In this document: positions 1 through 13,184 of the stretch, in pieces
Layout: each line of letters begins with the position of its first letter
Numbering within the stretch: the stretch's first letter is position 1
Source: Rhodothermales bacterium
Lineage (GTDB): Bacteria > Bacteroidota > Rhodothermia > Rhodothermales > Bin80
Length of the DNA: 64,000 bases
NCBI GenBank assembly: GCA_022821385.1
Contig: JAJEDR010000031.1
Location: 1-64,000, forward strand
Reading direction: 5' to 3'
Made by a program: the position numbers and the translations under genes
Notes under the pieces: generated by a model
Databases searched by the model: none
What the model was told of the DNA's origin: nothing
Seen by the model: the letters and a program-made list of their open reading frames with translations, nothing else

Positions 1-132
1 CGAATACAACAACCTGTTAACAGATTGGTAAGTGGAAGATAAATACGATAAATAGTGACAATAGAGATCGTAGGTCGTGTCTCTAAAGGGCTAAAGGTTC
101 CACACTGTCACTTTAGGTTGCCTGTTGGAAAT

Positions 133-1152
133 TCAGGCTAGTATGCCATGTTCGTCGAACCAGCGGTACGTGTCAACGATCGATTCTCCGAGCGACCGCG
201 GGTGAAACCCGAGTTCCGCCTTCGCCTTAGCATTGGATATCTTCCGATTGCTATGGGCCATGACGCGGACGGATACCGGCGTGTATAGCGGTTGACGGCC
301 GCGACACCGATCCAAAGCGACTTGGAAGGGCGCCCATAACCGGGCGGCGAATATTGGGAACTGGAGACGAGGTATGGGTACTCCGGTTGCCTGCCGGCAA
401 AGTTCCGCCAGTTCGCGCACGGTGTGCCAGTGACCTGATACGAGGTAGTTCTCGCCACATCTCGCCTGTGTCTCGGCGGCCATCATGGCCGCCACGACAT
501 CGCGCACATCGACCCAGTCGTAGCCACCTGCGATCAGCGCGGGAAGTTTCCTGCGGTGGAGGTCGAGAAATAGCTGCCCCATAGGCGACGGAGCGCCATC
601 ATAGGGTCCGATCACGCTGGTCGGATTTAGGATTACGGCGTCCAGGCCGCGATCAATGCCGCGGCGGACTTCCACTTCGCCTGCGGCTTTCGAACGGTCG
701 TAAGGCAGGTCGCGCGGGCTGTCAGCAGGAGGGCGGCTCTCGTCCAACACTTTGTCCAGCGGATGCTGGTCGTAAGCGTGGATCGAGGAAACATGAACCA
801 GTCGTCTCACGCCACATTCGAGGGCCGCTTCCACGACATTGCGGGTGCCCAGGACATTCGTGCGATGGTATTCTTGAGCCCTGACGCTACCGATCGATAC
901 CTTCGCGGCCAAATGGAAGACGGTCTCCGCGCCCGCGAAGGCGCAGATCAGCGTTTCCCTGTCGAGGATATCACCCTTGACCCATTCGATGTCGAGATCC
1001 GCCGCCGTCCCTCTACGCTCCCGAAAGACCGCACGGACGTGACGGGGCCCATACTTGTCGGCAAGAGCCCGCGTCAACACCCCGCCGATCTGCCCACTTG
1101 CCCCGGTGACTACCCGTATGGTGTGAGGTCGTCCTTCATCGGGTGACTTCAT
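133..1152 (-). CDS. NAD(P)-dependent extended SDR epimerase/reductase
   Basis: A 339-residue extended short-chain dehydrogenase/reductase. The N-terminal Rossmann glycine motif TGASGQIGG lies near residues 16-24, the conserved 'FHLAAKVS' strand near residue 79, and the catalytic YDRSK (YxxxK) near residues 151-155, followed by the 'NPTSVIGPYD' substrate loop. The overall type resembles dihydroflavonol-4-reductase or 3-beta-hydroxysteroid dehydrogenase-like proteins, which act on hydroxyl or keto groups of lipids, sugars or polyketides. It lies 64 bp downstream of the GPP34-P450 gene on the same strand, so the two probably form one transcript and may act on one substrate. The substrate cannot be read from sequence. 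The family call is secure; the exact activity is not. Confidence 0.88.
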   Translation of the reverse strand: MKSPDEGRPHTIRVVTGASGQIGGVLTRALADKYGPRHVRAVFRERRGTAADLDIEWVKGDILDRETLICAFAGAETVFHLAAKVSIGSVRAQEYHRTNVLGTRNVVEAALECGVRRLVHVSSIHAYDQHPLDKVLDESRPPADSPRDLPYDRSKAAGEVEVRRGIDRGLDAVILNPTSVIGPYDGAPSPMGQLFLDLHRRKLPALIAGGYDWVDVRDVVAAMMAAETQARCGENYLVSGHWHTVRELAELCRQATGVPIPRLQFPIFAARLWAPFQVALDRCRGRQPLYTPVSVRVMAHSNRKISNAKAKAELGFHPRSLGESIVDTYRWFDEHGILA

Positions 1153-1216
1153 TGCGAAAGGCGCAATTCGCGAATCGTAGGCCAGATCATACGCTGGAGG
1201 AGCAGGCGTAGCGAAC

Positions 1217-3262
1217 TCAGACTCGAAGCTCGTGCCGCAGCTCGGCGAGCCTGAATTTGATTTTGTTACTGGGCGACTGCGAGGGCAACGGATCCATGGG
1301 CAACCGCTTGAAAGGGCGGGCCAACTCGATCTTGAAGTGGTGTGTGAGCATTAGCAGGTTAATCACCATGTGCATATGGGCCCAGCGGCGCCCAAGACAT
1401 GAGTGCGTGCCCAGCCCAAAGGGTGCGTAGCCTCGGCTCCGATGCTCGTTTCGCGGGGGCGCGTAGCGGTCAATGTCGAACGTCCAAGGATCAGGAAACA
1501 CCTCATCCAAGTAGTGCGCGGCCGTCTGCGCAATTACAAGCTGCGTCCCGACCGGCAATTCGTAACCCTCTACCACGCAAGTGTTCATCACCGTGCGCAT
1601 CGACATGGGCACGATCGGCGACATCCGAAGGGTCTCCATCAGCACTCGGCGGGTCACGTCGATACGGTCTGGACTCAAGTCATCCTCGCTAGGATCGCCA
1701 TCGGCCCACAACGCATCCGCCTCGGCTGTGACTCGCTCGTACAACTCGGGATTCTGCAGCATCCTGTAAAGGGCAAAGCCAACCTGGTCGCCCATGTACA
1801 TGGCGGTCATCAAAATCGCCCCTAGCGGCAGCGACAGGTCCGATTCGGGCAGGAATTGCGGATCAGACGCGTGCAGCGCCAAGTACGCGTCCACCACATC
1901 CTTGGGCATCCCAGCCCGCTGCGTGGTCGTATGCGTAGTCTCCATACGATCTATGATCCGTTGCATAGCCTTCGCCCGGCGGCGCATCGACAGGGTATGG
2001 AGCATGAACGTTGGCAACATCTTGATGATGCCTACATTGAGTACTCGTACCTTGTATTCGAGCGCGTCCATAATTTCGTCCTGAGTGTCAATGCTGGCCA
2101 GGAGCGGCGATGACTGTGCGTTCAGAAATAGCCGCATCATCACCTGCGCCGGCATGATGGCACCGACGTCCCAACTCGCCATGTGAGTGCGGGACAGATC
2201 AAAGACCTCGTCCAGACGCCTGGTCAAAGTCGTAAGAGAGTAGGCGGGTTGCAGCGACTTTCGAAAACGAAAGTGATCGGCACCGTCGGTCGAGTGCATC
2301 GAGCGCGACACACCGTACGCTTTGTCGACGCCCTCGAAGTACTCCTTCGACCGCAAGAACCCACGCCCCTTGCTATGGGCCCACTGATTCGTCTTCAACC
2401 CCGCAAGTACAATAATATTCTGGCGGAATGGGAGCCGTAACTCAAACACTGGACCGTACTTTTCGGCCAAATAGGCGAACCCTGCCGGAAGCCTCCCCTC
2501 TCGTAGCTCCCGGTTGAACACCAAATCACGTAGGGACACGGCTGGAATCGGCTTGGTAAGCGAAGGCCGGCGAAGCGAAGGTGCGACGATGCTCTCGGAC
2601 ACCGCTGTCGCAATCGCTCGACCGATCGTGTCCATATTGCTGACCAACTTAATTCGCTCTTCCGCCTCCTCGTCGATTGGAAACATCTGCTGGAACGCGT
2701 TACAGGCGTCGACGAGGCCAGTGATAATCACATCGCGCGGCCCCGGAATTTCATCCGCGAAGATAATCCTGATTAGCCGGGCCCTTACGAACTCGCTCGC
2801 CAGGGGGTCTTCTTCTAGCGATGTATCGCCCGATTGCTGCCGCTTGGTGAACGTATAGAAGTCGCCGGGATGGCGGTCGAGAATCTGTCGCCGAACAAGC
2901 CGGTCCAGCGCACTGGAAATCACTGATTCGGACTTTGGTGCGAGCCGCTCAACCCAGTAGCCGACATCATGTTGTTCCGTTTCGGTAGCAATCTCCCGCA
3001 AGATCCGGTCCAGCACCGGACTACCGGTCTCGGTAGAATCGAACAGAATCAGCGACTTCAAATCGGAGTCGATGCGACCTAGCAACGACAGTTCACCCAA
3101 GGCTGCTCCGGCCATCGCGCAGTTCAGGTTCCAGCCGGGTACCTGACGAAAATATCCGGTTTCTTCGTCCAGCAGTGCCAACAGCAACTCTTCCTGCAGA
3201 CTCAGGGTGGACGCCTCCCGAGCCGTTTCAATTGCTGTCTCGTGAGTCATCAATGCACACAT
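1217..3262 (-). CDS. GPP34 (GOLPH3-like) domain fused to cytochrome P450
   Basis: A 681-residue two-domain protein. Residues about 18-230 match the GPP34/GOLPH3 pattern: 'LSLQEELLLALLDEETGYF', then 'AMAGAALGELSLLGRI', 'GSPVLDRILREIA', a 'YWVERLAP' segment and 'LDRLVRRQILDR'. GPP34 proteins are peripheral membrane, lipid-binding proteins. Residues about 235-681 are a full-length cytochrome P450: the K-helix ExxR as METLRMSP, and the haem loop FGLGTHSCLG with the thiolate cysteine near residue 622. The I-helix segment reads LMTAMYMGDQVGFAL and lacks the usual acid-threonine pair. The start is supported by GAGGA about 6 bases upstream on the minus strand. There is no transmembrane anchor, so the GPP34 domain may tether the enzyme to membrane lipid (inference). 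The gene leads a likely operon with the SDR gene downstream. Confidence 0.85.
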   Translation of the reverse strand: MCALMTHETAIETAREASTLSLQEELLLALLDEETGYFRQVPGWNLNCAMAGAALGELSLLGRIDSDLKSLILFDSTETGSPVLDRILREIATETEQHDVGYWVERLAPKSESVISSALDRLVRRQILDRHPGDFYTFTKRQQSGDTSLEEDPLASEFVRARLIRIIFADEIPGPRDVIITGLVDACNAFQQMFPIDEEAEERIKLVSNMDTIGRAIATAVSESIVAPSLRRPSLTKPIPAVSLRDLVFNRELREGRLPAGFAYLAEKYGPVFELRLPFRQNIIVLAGLKTNQWAHSKGRGFLRSKEYFEGVDKAYGVSRSMHSTDGADHFRFRKSLQPAYSLTTLTRRLDEVFDLSRTHMASWDVGAIMPAQVMMRLFLNAQSSPLLASIDTQDEIMDALEYKVRVLNVGIIKMLPTFMLHTLSMRRRAKAMQRIIDRMETTHTTTQRAGMPKDVVDAYLALHASDPQFLPESDLSLPLGAILMTAMYMGDQVGFALYRMLQNPELYERVTAEADALWADGDPSEDDLSPDRIDVTRRVLMETLRMSPIVPMSMRTVMNTCVVEGYELPVGTQLVIAQTAAHYLDEVFPDPWTFDIDRYAPPRNEHRSRGYAPFGLGTHSCLGRRWAHMHMVINLLMLTHHFKIELARPFKRLPMDPLPSQSPSNKIKFRLAELRHELRV

Positions 3263-3479
3263 TCGCTTCCTCGTAAAGTCTTGCTGAGAAGATTACAGCA
3301 GAGGCCTGAAAACATTTAGATATATGCAGGTTCCTGTGGAAGGTTTCCACGATTCCAATCGAATGATTAGACTATGGCGGGACTGCTGGAATGGCAGTTG
3401 GCCCGTGATAGAGGGGTTCGCTGGTGTACGTTGCGCATGGCCGGAGATTCAACCCGCGGAACGTCCTAATATCATGCTT

Positions 3480-9542: not shown

Positions 9543-11939
9543 ATGAATGCGTCTGATCCGCAGGTACTGCCCATTCTGGTCCTCCGCAATACGGTCCTCT
9601 TCCCGGGAGCCATACTGCCGATCACGGTGGGGCGCAATGCTTCGCTGCAACTGATACGTAATACTGTCAACCAGAACAACCTCTTTGGGGTGATCTCTCA
9701 GCGAGAACAGGAAATTGACGACCCAGAGGCCGAAGATCTATATAGCGTAGGCACTGTCGCTACAATTCTGAAGATGACCAAGATGCCGGATGGTGGAAAA
9801 AATATAATTATTCAGGGGGAAACCCAGTTCAGAGTTGAAGAATTCACGCAATCAAGGCCCTACTTCAAGGCACAGATCGAAACCCTTGAGGAATATGAAG
9901 ATCTGCCAGATGATGTCGAAAAAAAAGCCTTAAAGCATTCAATAACAAATTTGGCCATTGACATCGTAGACCTCTCACCAAACCTCCCAAATGAGGCGGC
10001 TGACGCCATACAAAAAATCAAGTCTCTCACATTGCTGATCAACCTTATCGCCTCGCAGCTGCAAATCAGCGTTCAGGAGAAACAGTCGCTTCTGGAGACT
10101 ACGTCATTAAAAGATCGAGCAGAACTGTTGATCAAGCACCTGAACAAAGAAATCGAGGTTCTGAAAGTTTCGAAGAAAATCCGTGCGCGTATGAGTGATG
10201 ATGTGGATAAGCAGCAACGGGAGTTTCTTCTCAGGCAGAAAATGAAGGCTATCCAGGATGAGTTGGGAGAGGGATCAAGCGATAATGAGCATGCTGAGCT
10301 GCACGAGCGGGCCAAGGAAAAACAACTTCCTGAGCATGTCATGAGTGCGTTCGAGAAGGAGATGAAAAAGCTTGAACGTTCAAACCCCGTCATGCCTGAT
10401 TATGCAGTTACACGTAACTACGTAGACTGGATCCTCGACCTGCCCTGGACTGAATACACTGAGGATCAACTGGATATCGCGCACGCTGAGCAGGTTCTCG
10501 AGGAAGATCATCACGGATTGGAAAAAGTCAAGCAGCGCATACTGGAGCACTTGGCCGTGCTCAAGCTCAAGGGAGATATGAAGGCTCCTATTCTGTGCTT
10601 CCACGGCCCTCCTGGAGTTGGTAAAACCAGTCTTGGCAGAAGCATTGCCCGTGCGATGGGGCGTAAGTTCATCCGAGTCAGCCTCGGGGGAGTCCACGAT
10701 GAAGCGGAAATACGCGGTCACCGACGCACATACATTGGTGCATTGCCCGGCCGCATACTACAGGGACTTAAAAAAGCTGGCTCTGCCAATCCAGTGTTCA
10801 TGCTGGATGAAATTGACAAAATTGGTAACATTCATAGAGGGGATCCCTCCAGTGCTCTACTAGAGGTGCTTGACCCGGAGCAGAACAACGCCTTCAATGA
10901 TCACTACCTAGAGCTGGATTACGACTTGTCTAACGTACTGTTTATCACGACTGCGAATTCGCTGCATACAATTCCTGCGCCGCTTAGAGATCGCACGGAA
11001 ACCATCGAGATATCTGGATATACGCAAGAGGAAAAACTAGCTATCGCTCAAGGGTACCTCGTCCCGCGCCAGATTGAGCGTAACGGCCTTGACGAGACGC
11101 AGTTCACACTTGATGAAGCAGCATTAAACTATATCATCGACGGATATACCCGTGAATCCGGAGTCCGAAACCTTGAGCGCACGATTGGGAGCGTGGCACG
11201 TGGTGTTGCAAAAAGAATAGCAGCCGAAGAAATCACTGAGTCGACGGTATCAAAGGATGATGTCGAGACGTATCTGGGGGCACGTAAGTTCTTCAGCGAA
11301 ATAGCTGAACGAACCGAAGTCCCTGGTGTCGCCACCGGACTTGCGTGGACACCTACAGGCGGCGATATCCTGTTTGTAGAGGCCTCTGTCTCCCGTGGTA
11401 GCGGTGAACTTATTCTAACCGGTAGCCTGGGAGACATTATGCAGGAGTCCGCCAAAGCTGCTCTCAGTTACATCAAGGCACGTGCTGATGAACTGGAAAT
11501 CCCACAGCATGCCTTCAAGCATTACGATGTACATGTACATGTTCCCGCTGGTGCCGTCTCAAAAGACGGCCCCAGTGCCGGTGTTGCGTTACTCTCAGCG
11601 CTCGTATCAATCTATTCGCAGCGGAAAGTGCAACACGATCTGGCAATGACCGGTGAAATCACTCTTCGCGGCCTCGTATTACCCGTTGGGGGCATCAAGG
11701 AAAAGGTTCTAGCCGCTAGACGAGCGGGGATCAAACATGTCCTCCTGCCGTCCAAGAATGAGAAAGACATAAAGGAGATCAAACCCGAAACGCTGGAGGG
11801 GCTGAACGTCCACTATGTCCGACGTATGAGTCAGGTACTTGACATGACGCTGGACACAACCGCAATCAGACATCCCGGAGAATTCTTCACAGCACCTGCA
11901 CCGAGTAATGGTGCGCACCAGGGGACATCCCCCTCCTAG
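9543..11939 (+). CDS. lon: ATP-dependent protease Lon
   Basis: A full-length 798-residue LonA. The N-terminal substrate-binding domain opens with '[19 protein letters not shown]'. A long coiled-coil region follows (about residues 190-300), then the AAA+ module with Walker [10 protein letters not shown] and '[11 protein letters not shown]', and the C-terminal protease domain with the serine in [10 protein letters not shown] and the lysine in [10 protein letters not shown]. It degrades misfolded and regulatory proteins in the cytoplasm. It is divergent from the CBS-like gene, and a TTGACA lies about 115 bases upstream. Its stop overlaps that of a small minus-strand gene through the shared palindrome CTAG (11936-11939). 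Confidence 0.97.
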
Positions 11940-12166
11940 GTTGCCTCGGCCTCAGCAGAATCTTTTTCGTCGGCGGATGATTCTGGTGTGCTGAAAATCT
12001 CAGAACACTCTTCCGAGACGTAATCAACAAAGGTGCTTATGGCTTCGACGGTTGTGTTCAGGGTTTGCGTGGCTATGAACTCGACCTTTTGATCCAGTCC
12101 AAGCTGTCCAAAAACACGCTTGGCCTCAGCAAACGTGTCACGGTTATCTTCCTGTTGCGTGCTCAT
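11936..12166 (-). CDS. Small acidic protein of unknown function
   Basis: A 76-residue acidic protein with no signal peptide or transmembrane segment. The N-terminal half looks helical ('AKRVFGQLGLDQKVEFIATQ') and the C-terminus is a disordered E/D/S/A tail. I do not recognise a family. It fits neatly between lon and rsgA, starting 76 bases before rsgA on the opposite strand, and shares the CTAG stop palindrome with lon. The plausible start and compact placement favour a real gene. Confidence 0.6.
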   Translation of the reverse strand: MSTQQEDNRDTFAEAKRVFGQLGLDQKVEFIATQTLNTTVEAISTFVDYVSEECSEIFSTPESSADEKDSAEAEAT

Positions 12167-12242
12167 TTTCGGTGCGCCTTAAGTAAATTACCCATGTCCC
12201 TGTAATACGTGTACGCGGACGCTCTGTTGCGATCAACCATTA

Positions 12243-13184
12243 ATGCTCATGCACACCGGCACAGTGGTTCGTTCCACCGGAACCTGGATTGATGTCTCGG
12301 TCGAGGGGAAAATGATCCCTTCGCGCATTCGCGGTCGAATGCGTCTGGATCACGAAGACAGTACGCAGCCGATCGCCGTAGGCGATCGCGTCGGTCTCGT
12401 GATTCAGAATGACAACACCGGATTAATCACCCAGGTCCATCAGCGATTTAACTGTCTACAGCGCCGGGCTGCGGGACGCAAAGTACGGAAGCGTCAAATT
12501 CTTGTGGCAAATGTTGACTTTATATGGATTGTTCAGGCAACTCGGCAGCCGGCACTGAACTGGAGACTGGTTGACCGCCTGCTGATTGCCTGTGAAACTC
12601 AGGACATTCCTGCAGGGCTGGTGATTAATAAAATGGATCTGGCTTCACCAGATCTCTCAATATCAGTCGGAGAGCTCGGTGAGTATTACCGGAAGTTGGG
12701 TTACCCAGTCGTGCTGACCAGTGTGAAGGAGCCGGTCAACCTAGAGACATTGTGCAATCTGTTTTCCGACAAGATTAATGTGCTTTTAGGTCCCTCAGGA
12801 GTTGGCAAATCTTCGCTTCTTAATGCCATTGACCCCGAGATAAATATTCCTACAAAATCTATCAGCGACAAAACAAGTAAGGGACGCCATACCACAGCGC
12901 ATACCGAACTGCATTCACTGATCACTGGCGGCAGTGTTATGGATACGCCGGGCATACGCGAATTTGGTCTTCTGGATATCAAACCGTGGGAACTTGCGCA
13001 TCACTTCCCGGAATTCAGGCCACATCTCACAAGATGCCGTTTCCCCGCCTGCACACACGATCACGAACCGAACTGTGCCGTGAAGCGTGCACATATGATG
13101 GAGAGAATCAGCGACGAACGCTATGAAAGCTATCTCAATATCCTTTATACCTTACGTCTTGGCGATGCAGATATAGGACGCTGA
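12243..13184 (+). CDS. rsgA: Ribosome small-subunit-dependent GTPase A
   Basis: A 313-residue circularly permuted GTPase. An N-terminal OB fold is followed by the GTPase motifs in permuted order: G4 NKMDL, G1 GPSGVGKSS, G3 DTPG. The C-terminal zinc-binding segment is 'CRFPACTHDHEPNC'. RsgA matures the 30S subunit using GTP. All key residues are intact. The TGA stop overlaps the ATG of the following FG-GAP gene by one base (TGATG), which suggests translational coupling. Confidence 0.96.
   Translation: MLMHTGTVVRSTGTWIDVSVEGKMIPSRIRGRMRLDHEDSTQPIAVGDRVGLVIQNDNTGLITQVHQRFNCLQRRAAGRKVRKRQILVANVDFIWIVQATRQPALNWRLVDRLLIACETQDIPAGLVINKMDLASPDLSISVGELGEYYRKLGYPVVLTSVKEPVNLETLCNLFSDKINVLLGPSGVGKSSLLNAIDPEINIPTKSISDKTSKGRHTTAHTELHSLITGGSVMDTPGIREFGLLDIKPWELAHHFPEFRPHLTRCRFPACTHDHEPNCAVKRAHMMERISDERYESYLNILYTLRLGDADIGR

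Follow-up and report, generated by a model that had tools for sequence, protein, structure and literature searches.

In this study, we characterized a gene that joins an N-terminal GPP34 (GOLPH3-like) domain to a cytochrome P450 in a Rhodothermales genome (GCA_022821385.1), where it lies in the first 64,000 nucleotides of contig C12 (JAJEDR010000031.1), the stretch of DNA analysed here and referred to as the window. The GPP34-P450 fusion is real, and we consider it probable that it is a sterol-tailoring P450 forming, with the SDR encoded next to it, a mobile two-gene unit that has spread among sponge symbionts. The unit is often enlarged to the order Rieske, GPP34-P450, SDR, 5alpha-reductase (SRD5A), together with an RND or MMPL exporter. 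We infer the sterol substrate, the order of the steps and a docking role for the GPP34 domain.

A GPP34 domain in frame with a cytochrome P450

The fusion gene is a single open reading frame free of internal stops (Table 1). Its ATG follows a purine-rich GAGGAAG, and, since the usual first residue among the fusion homologues is the fifth codon (MTHETA/VTHETA), the true start may lie four codons downstream. The initial annotation had placed a GPP34 domain at about residues 18-230 and a P450 at about 235-681, and both domains were recovered well above the Pfam cut-offs; PF05719 matched with E 3.2e-29 (102.9 bits against a cut-off of 29.1, profile positions 1-200 of 201) and PF00067 with 133 bits against a cut-off of 22.8. 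An ExxR motif (METLR, residues 542-546) and the heme-thiolate loop complete the P450 hallmarks. That the junction is genuine, as had also been claimed, is borne out by stop-free full-length homologues in relatives, on contigs up to whole chromosomes.

Structure prediction, which the annotation had recommended, was informative for one of the two parts. The GPP34 part was modelled by AF2 with pLDDT mostly 80-91 (per 10-residue block), and its best Foldseek matches were GOLPH3/Vps74 (E 9e-8 to 3.5e-5), among them 9qpq, a COPI-GOLPH3 complex, and 3kn1 (E 9e-8 and 1.6e-7, TMt 0.67 and 0.63, respectively), so that the domain has a GOLPH3-like fold. AlphaFold was also run on the full-length protein and on its P450 part, with 25-26 mostly close homologues, and the mean pLDDT was 46 and 51, respectively. 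Given this shallow alignment the P450 is modelled poorly, and therefore its assignment rests on sequence and its Foldseek ranks are only indicative.

Table 1. Features at the start of contig C12 (positions in the window; residues of the fusion protein).
Feature	Position	Strand	Basis
GPP34-P450 fusion gene, class A, 681 aa	1217..3262	-	ORF, Pfam, hallmarks, tree
GPP34 (GOLPH3-like) domain, residues 22-223	2594..3199	-	PF05719; AF2; Foldseek
Between-domain stretch, residues 224-259 (linker and P450 N-terminal segment)	2486..2593	-	Pfam boundaries
Cytochrome P450 domain, residues 260-657	1292..2485	-	PF00067, E 1.8e-38
Non-canonical I-helix MTAMYMGDQVG; alcohol position without Thr, one residue shorter than class B	1778..1810	-	alignment
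Heme-thiolate loop FGLGTHSCLG, residues 615-624, Cys622	1391..1420	-	P450 hallmark
SDR, 339 aa, HpnA/SdmB/3beta-HSD-like; last residues and stop apparently reshaped by IS insertion	133..1152	-	PF01370, PF01073
Transferred two-gene unit (SDR and P450)	137..3289	-	blastn; GC3
Putative IS5-like element, one end; 11-bp TIR CCTGAATTTCC, CTAG target; contig edge	1..136	.	repeat comparison

Two classes of fusion that differ in the I-helix

The fusions fall into two classes, A and B, on opposite sides of one fully supported branch of the tree. The I-helix of class B is canonical (GLHTTAS, GLDTTAS), and loci L155 and L167 sit inside this class. The monooxygenase signature [AG]Gx[DE]T is absent from the window protein, which has MYMGDQVG, and from class A generally, in which the Thr is missing; other class A variants are VYLGDAF and IYVGGGI. 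In all class A copies examined, loss of the Thr and deletion of one I-helix residue fall on a single branch (starred in the tree), and the Cys ligand and ExxR are kept. As the Thr that usually activates O2 is missing, ordinary monooxygenation is not assured.

The nearest solved sequences are CYP51, with a best PDB match of only 74 bits. We rejected membership of CYP51 on the basis of this low score, the different I-helix and the presence in relatives of another, unfused P450 beside the oxidosqualene cyclase (OSC) and ERG24, which is distinct from GPP34-P450. The likeness is that of a sterol P450 with an extra domain, as in the Methylococcus CYP51-ferredoxin fusion, although in the present protein that domain is an N-terminal GPP34 and not a ferredoxin, and class A lacks the I-helix Thr motif.

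Distribution of the fusion

Full-length homologues without stops, at 28-48% identity, are carried by the majority of genomes in the window's genus, by several more from its family and by members of a second family in the order. The window genome itself carries a second, more distant GPP34-P450 of class B with a canonical I-helix (L065; G000:C65, 10121-12115, + strand). An acyltransferase-3 gene follows this class B fusion, and such a gene also stands beside the copy in L075. In the phylum sample, 23/394 genomes had a GPP34 match, and open frames of P450-fusion length occurred only in the window's family and the second family of the order; elsewhere GPP34 was mostly free-standing (220-340 aa), with one fusion to a molybdopterin oxidoreductase. 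At L133 (G117:C6, 1-2889, - strand), GPP34 is fused to a molybdopterin oxidoreductase in a frame of 963 aa truncated by the contig end, a second kind of GPP34-redox-enzyme fusion.

The named genome collection yielded 42 loci at 71-87% identity. The MAGs that carry them are labelled Gemmatimonadota, Acidobacteriota, Latescibacterota, Chloroflexota, Binatia, Verrucomicrobiota (Opitutales), and Alpha- and Gammaproteobacteria; copies this similar occur in sponge MAGs of six or more phyla besides the window's. Names of the RHO, IRC and SB06 type presumably belong to other sponge MAG sets, and we take the p16x MAGs to be from the same Ircinia set as those named jk18x. Kelly et al. 2022 (PMC9531527) used the jk18x naming for their MAGs from Ircinia sponges. 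In a Gemmatimonadota order sample the full fusion was present in 33/146 genomes, many with two or three copies, which makes this order a likely home lineage. In the plasmid collection no match covered 80% of the fusion protein, and a distant P450 was all that the viral collection yielded. One Ircinia MAG (L052, 8001-10036) has the GPP34-P450 in two overlapping frames (480 + 198 aa), reflecting a frameshift or a sequencing error.

The two-gene unit and its horizontal acquisition

The SDR lies 64 nt downstream of the fusion gene on the same strand, and its role as partner, proposed in the initial annotation, is upheld by its retention at 25/31 sponge-MAG loci with enough downstream sequence. It matches PF01370 (E 9e-34) and PF01073 (E 5e-19; 68.8 bits, cut-off 22), the latter placing it in the 3beta-HSD/isomerase family. 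Its scores against HpnA (TIGR03466, 209 bits) and SdmB (NF052578, 196.7 bits) fall below the curated cut-offs of 367.65 and 600, respectively, and it is assigned to neither family. At L033 and L051 (about 10150-12870), the P450 and a more divergent SDR (71% identical) lie on either side of an insert of 2.7 kb.

Identity, base composition and phylogeny together indicate that the window fusion was acquired horizontally with its downstream SDR. The DNA is 85-87% identical to that of Gemmatimonadota sponge MAGs from base 137-140 to about 3275-3289, and at both ends the blastn match stops at the SDR and P450. GC3 is 70 and 67 in the two genes of the unit versus about 53 for the window outside them. 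In rpoB, the window genome shares 71-77% identity with members of its family, yet only 49-60% (longest segment per genome) with the MAGs sharing the 71-87% identical fusion. The best solved relatives of this rpoB, 9n9p and 8dkc, are enzymes of Bacteroidota, in keeping with the probable membership of the organism in that phylum. In the tree, the window copy sits inside a starred clade of Gemmatimonadota copies from Ircinia, apart from the class A copies of the window's genus and the second family, which make up a clade of their own. Vertical inheritance was rejected, since the class A copies of the genus are only 35-40% identical to the window copy and lie in that separate clade. Across MAGs, the GC3 of the fusion gene tracks flanking GC (r 0.79), which points to residence in different genomes and argues against misbinning.

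After the CTAG in which the SDR terminates comes CCTGAATTTCC. Contig C39 of the same genome opens with an element ending in GGAAATTCAGG, followed by CTAG and a C-terminal steroid 5alpha-reductase fragment. The element end occurs at several other sites in the window genome, with CTAG after 5/5 further copies checked. On our reading, these sequences belong to a putative IS5-like element that has 11-bp terminal inverted repeats, duplicated its CTAG target and lies between the SDR and an SRD5A relic; such an insertion would explain the contig break and would put C12 next to C39. IS5-like ends (window 1-136; L110, G000:C39:1-139) stand at several contig ends and are probably behind several assembly breaks. 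At the start of C39 a 32-aa Steroid_dh match was rejected as an intact SRD5A and is the relic beyond the IS (L110, 136-229). The same relic lies directly behind the SDR in the Gemmatimonadota MAG of L028. As the window genome has only this C-terminal relic, the full cassette is not intact there.

A unit of foreign appearance at bases 1-3262 of contig C12 might suggest that the fusion, or its genomic place, is an assembly artefact. We rejected this explanation as exceedingly improbable, because the fusion is repeated on numerous long, independent contigs and on closed chromosomes, because its DNA here is about 13% away from that of the nearest copies, with a GC3 intermediate between host and donor, and because the terminal inverted repeats and CTAG duplication link C12 to C39 and the SRD5A relic that follows there.

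Class A fusions lie among sterol genes

Neighbouring genes at fusion loci were counted by tblastn. Around class A fusions in sponge MAGs of many phyla, in addition to the SDR (25/31), we found SRD5A (16/25), KshA-type Rieske (13/33), RND (10/33), MMPL (9/33), 24-sterol methyltransferase (SMT, 4/33) and SQLE-OSC (3/33) genes. In the window's own order the counts were 7/12 for Rieske, 10/12 for RND and 3/12 for SMT, and in the Gemmatimonadota order (about 40-55% identity to the window protein) the arrangement was SMT-RND-P450-Rieske or Rieske-P450-SMT-RND. At the 16 class B loci, Rieske, SMT, SDR and SRD5A genes were all absent. A Rieske or SMT neighbour was present at 17/23 native class A loci versus 0/16 class B loci (Fisher 2e-6), a count whose independence is overstated, because class A is one clade and the sterol link is effectively one evolutionary event.

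The families of these neighbours are supported by matches to Steroid_dh (E 7e-52), Rieske and KshA_C (E 3e-21) and Sterol_MT_C (E 9e-21). The closest PDB relative of the Rieske protein is KshA (3-ketosteroid 9alpha-hydroxylase), the RND protein is AcrB-type and accompanied by an adaptor, and the MMPL protein carries a Sterol-sensing match and also resembles HpnN. An OSC was present within 8 kb at three of the 33 sponge-MAG loci (L032, L039 and L053), as a squalene epoxidase/cyclase fusion. At these loci and in the window's own genus and order (L113-L117, L120-L121), the squalene epoxidase-like segment is in frame with the cyclase (about 1160 aa), and the fusion adjoins an SMT and a separate P450 and resembles MsbE of the Melophlus msb locus. 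Two further arrangements were observed: L159 (G463:C60, 8274-12445, - strand) has tandem class A paralogues beside Rieske and RND genes, and at L067-L069 and L080, in the second family of the order, an FAD amine-oxidase-like gene of about 470 aa adjoins the GPP34-P450.

Elsewhere in the window genome we found an SMT (contig C19) and a KshA-type Rieske gene (contig C35). OSC and the delta-14 reductase ERG24 were not found in this genome, and both are present in several of its genus mates. Sterol must therefore come from the host or from neighbours, and the organism, whose sponge habitat we deduce from its gene relatives, probably modifies sterols from either source.

Discussion

The initial annotation had supposed a lipid or terpenoid substrate, and the genomic context favours this, with a sterol as the lipid in question. 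Its account of the domains, the fusion and the SDR likewise stood; it had not registered the transfer, the sterol genes nearby, the change in the I-helix or the insertion sequence where the contig begins. In the mechanism that we propose, sterols partition into the inner membrane, the GPP34 module would keep the soluble P450 there, and the P450 would oxidise a sterol carbon, after which the 3beta-HSD/SdmB-like SDR would oxidise or decarboxylate next to C3. Where SRD5A is present, a delta-4-3-ketone would be reduced to its 5alpha form; the Rieske enzyme may carry out a second oxidation and the SMT may alkylate the side chain, with the product exported by the RND or MMPL pump. CYP5122A1 of Leishmania, a P450 claimed to be a sterol C4-methyl oxidase (PMC10402201), makes it a concrete option that C4 is oxidised and the SDR then decarboxylates; alternatively, a 3-ketone would be formed and then 5alpha-reduced. 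BstA provides a precedent for an RND protein that binds sterols.

How the GPP34 domain contributes is less certain than its fold. With a maximum KD19 of 1.28, the fusion protein lacks transmembrane segments, so that any anchoring would be peripheral, and membrane docking by GPP34, as the initial annotation supposed, is plausible. Docking is weakened as a proposal by the Ala/Ile/Ser that the profile alignment places at the positions of the GOLPH3 PI4P-pocket arginines, which we take to be R90, R171 and R174, and by the acidity of the domain (22 K+R vs 36 D+E). Since class B has GPP34 without sterol neighbours, the domain is not specific to sterol work. The same missing arginines and net acidic charge would suit a module for protein interaction or oligomerisation, serving to tether the P450 to the pump, SRD5A, a reductase or a similar partner, as opposed to a membrane anchor. 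GOLPH3 also binds protein tails, and the frequency of free-standing GPP34 and its fusion to a molybdopterin oxidoreductase fit a general adaptor. No such partner was identified, however, and a tether is compatible with a peripheral membrane role, so that we regard it as a serious possibility that stops short of being the probable one.

A further question is what the class A P450 does with its altered helix. Loss of the Thr and of one residue in every class A copy examined, with the Cys ligand and ExxR retained, would fit an isomerase/dehydratase-type enzyme, a peroxide user or a sterol-binding carrier. We consider a role other than monooxygenation somewhat unlikely, given that the heme loop is conserved and that some P450s without the I-helix Thr still monooxygenate with help from the substrate; dN well below dS in the P450 part indicates a functional gene but does not specify which function. 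No redox partner gene was found beside the fusion gene. As to the pathway, a Rieske enzyme nearest to 3-ketosteroid 9alpha-hydroxylase and RND efflux neighbours could belong to a cluster that degrades or detoxifies host sterols, yet the biosynthetic SMT and SQLE-OSC genes co-located at L032, L039, L053 and in native clusters, and the 5alpha-reductase among the neighbours, argue for tailoring and make degradation improbable. A hopanoid or other triterpenoid substrate is more improbable still: the SDR is slightly nearer HpnA than SdmB and the MMPL neighbour is HpnN-like, but the squalene/hopene cyclase C-terminal domain had no match in the window genome, and the SMT, Steroid_dh and KshA_C neighbours belong to steroid families.

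Sterol tailoring by a GPP34-P450 is related to several systems already described. GOLPH3/Vps74 share fold and profile with the window domain, which differs in being bacterial, fused to a P450, acidic and without conserved PI4P-pocket Arg. Kelly et al. 2022 (PMC9531527) described clusters of steroid genes (CSG) in Ircinia symbionts, transferred across about ten phyla, which share with the GPP34-P450 unit the MAG set (jk18x, p16x), sterol genes and cross-phylum transfer. ERG24-CYP51-LSS forms the core of a CSG and is usually accompanied by a 'DFR' that we take to be an SdmB homologue; the GPP34-P450/SDR/SRD5A unit is not mentioned for it, the genes are distinct (SDR about 30% identical), and the window genome, without OSC and ERG24, does not have the ERG24, CYP51 and LSS of a CSG in one operon. 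SdmA and SdmB demethylate sterols at C-4 with a Rieske oxygenase and an SDR (PMC10202945). Rieske and SDR recur here, the SDR being SdmB-like, but both score far below the SdmA/SdmB cut-offs, and the unit adds a P450 and often a 5alpha-reductase. The msb locus of a gammaproteobacterial Melophlus sponge symbiont (Mohanty et al. 2020, PMC7074536) has, like the sterol clusters here, a Rieske enzyme, an SDR, an SMT and a squalene epoxidase-cyclase fusion, and no GPP34-P450 or SRD5A is named in the portion of that report available to us. In line with the view of the initial annotation that no such system had been described, our literature searches returned no bacterial GPP34-P450, with bioRxiv and most subscription journals outside their coverage. 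Among bacterial P450s of sterol clusters, this one is set apart by a new domain partner, by the change in its active-site helix and by its mobile cassette. Tentatively, and with rather less confidence than in the two-gene unit itself, we suggest that these elements may form an undescribed, transferred sterol pathway (Rieske, GPP34-P450, SDR, 5alpha-reductase and exporter), in which a membrane-held P450 with altered oxygen-activation chemistry would remodel sterols of the sponge or of neighbours.

Sponges contain unusual sterols, some of which serve as molecular fossils of early animals, and whether host or symbiont makes them is disputed (PMC10070321). The unit offers a concrete, mobile and testable symbiont gene set for sterol tailoring, even in a bacterium apparently unable to make sterols. 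A bacterial GOLPH3-type domain attached to an enzyme means that the ancestral role of this domain could be tested, and the P450 clade is one in which the active-site helix changed once, on a branch with members in sterol clusters.
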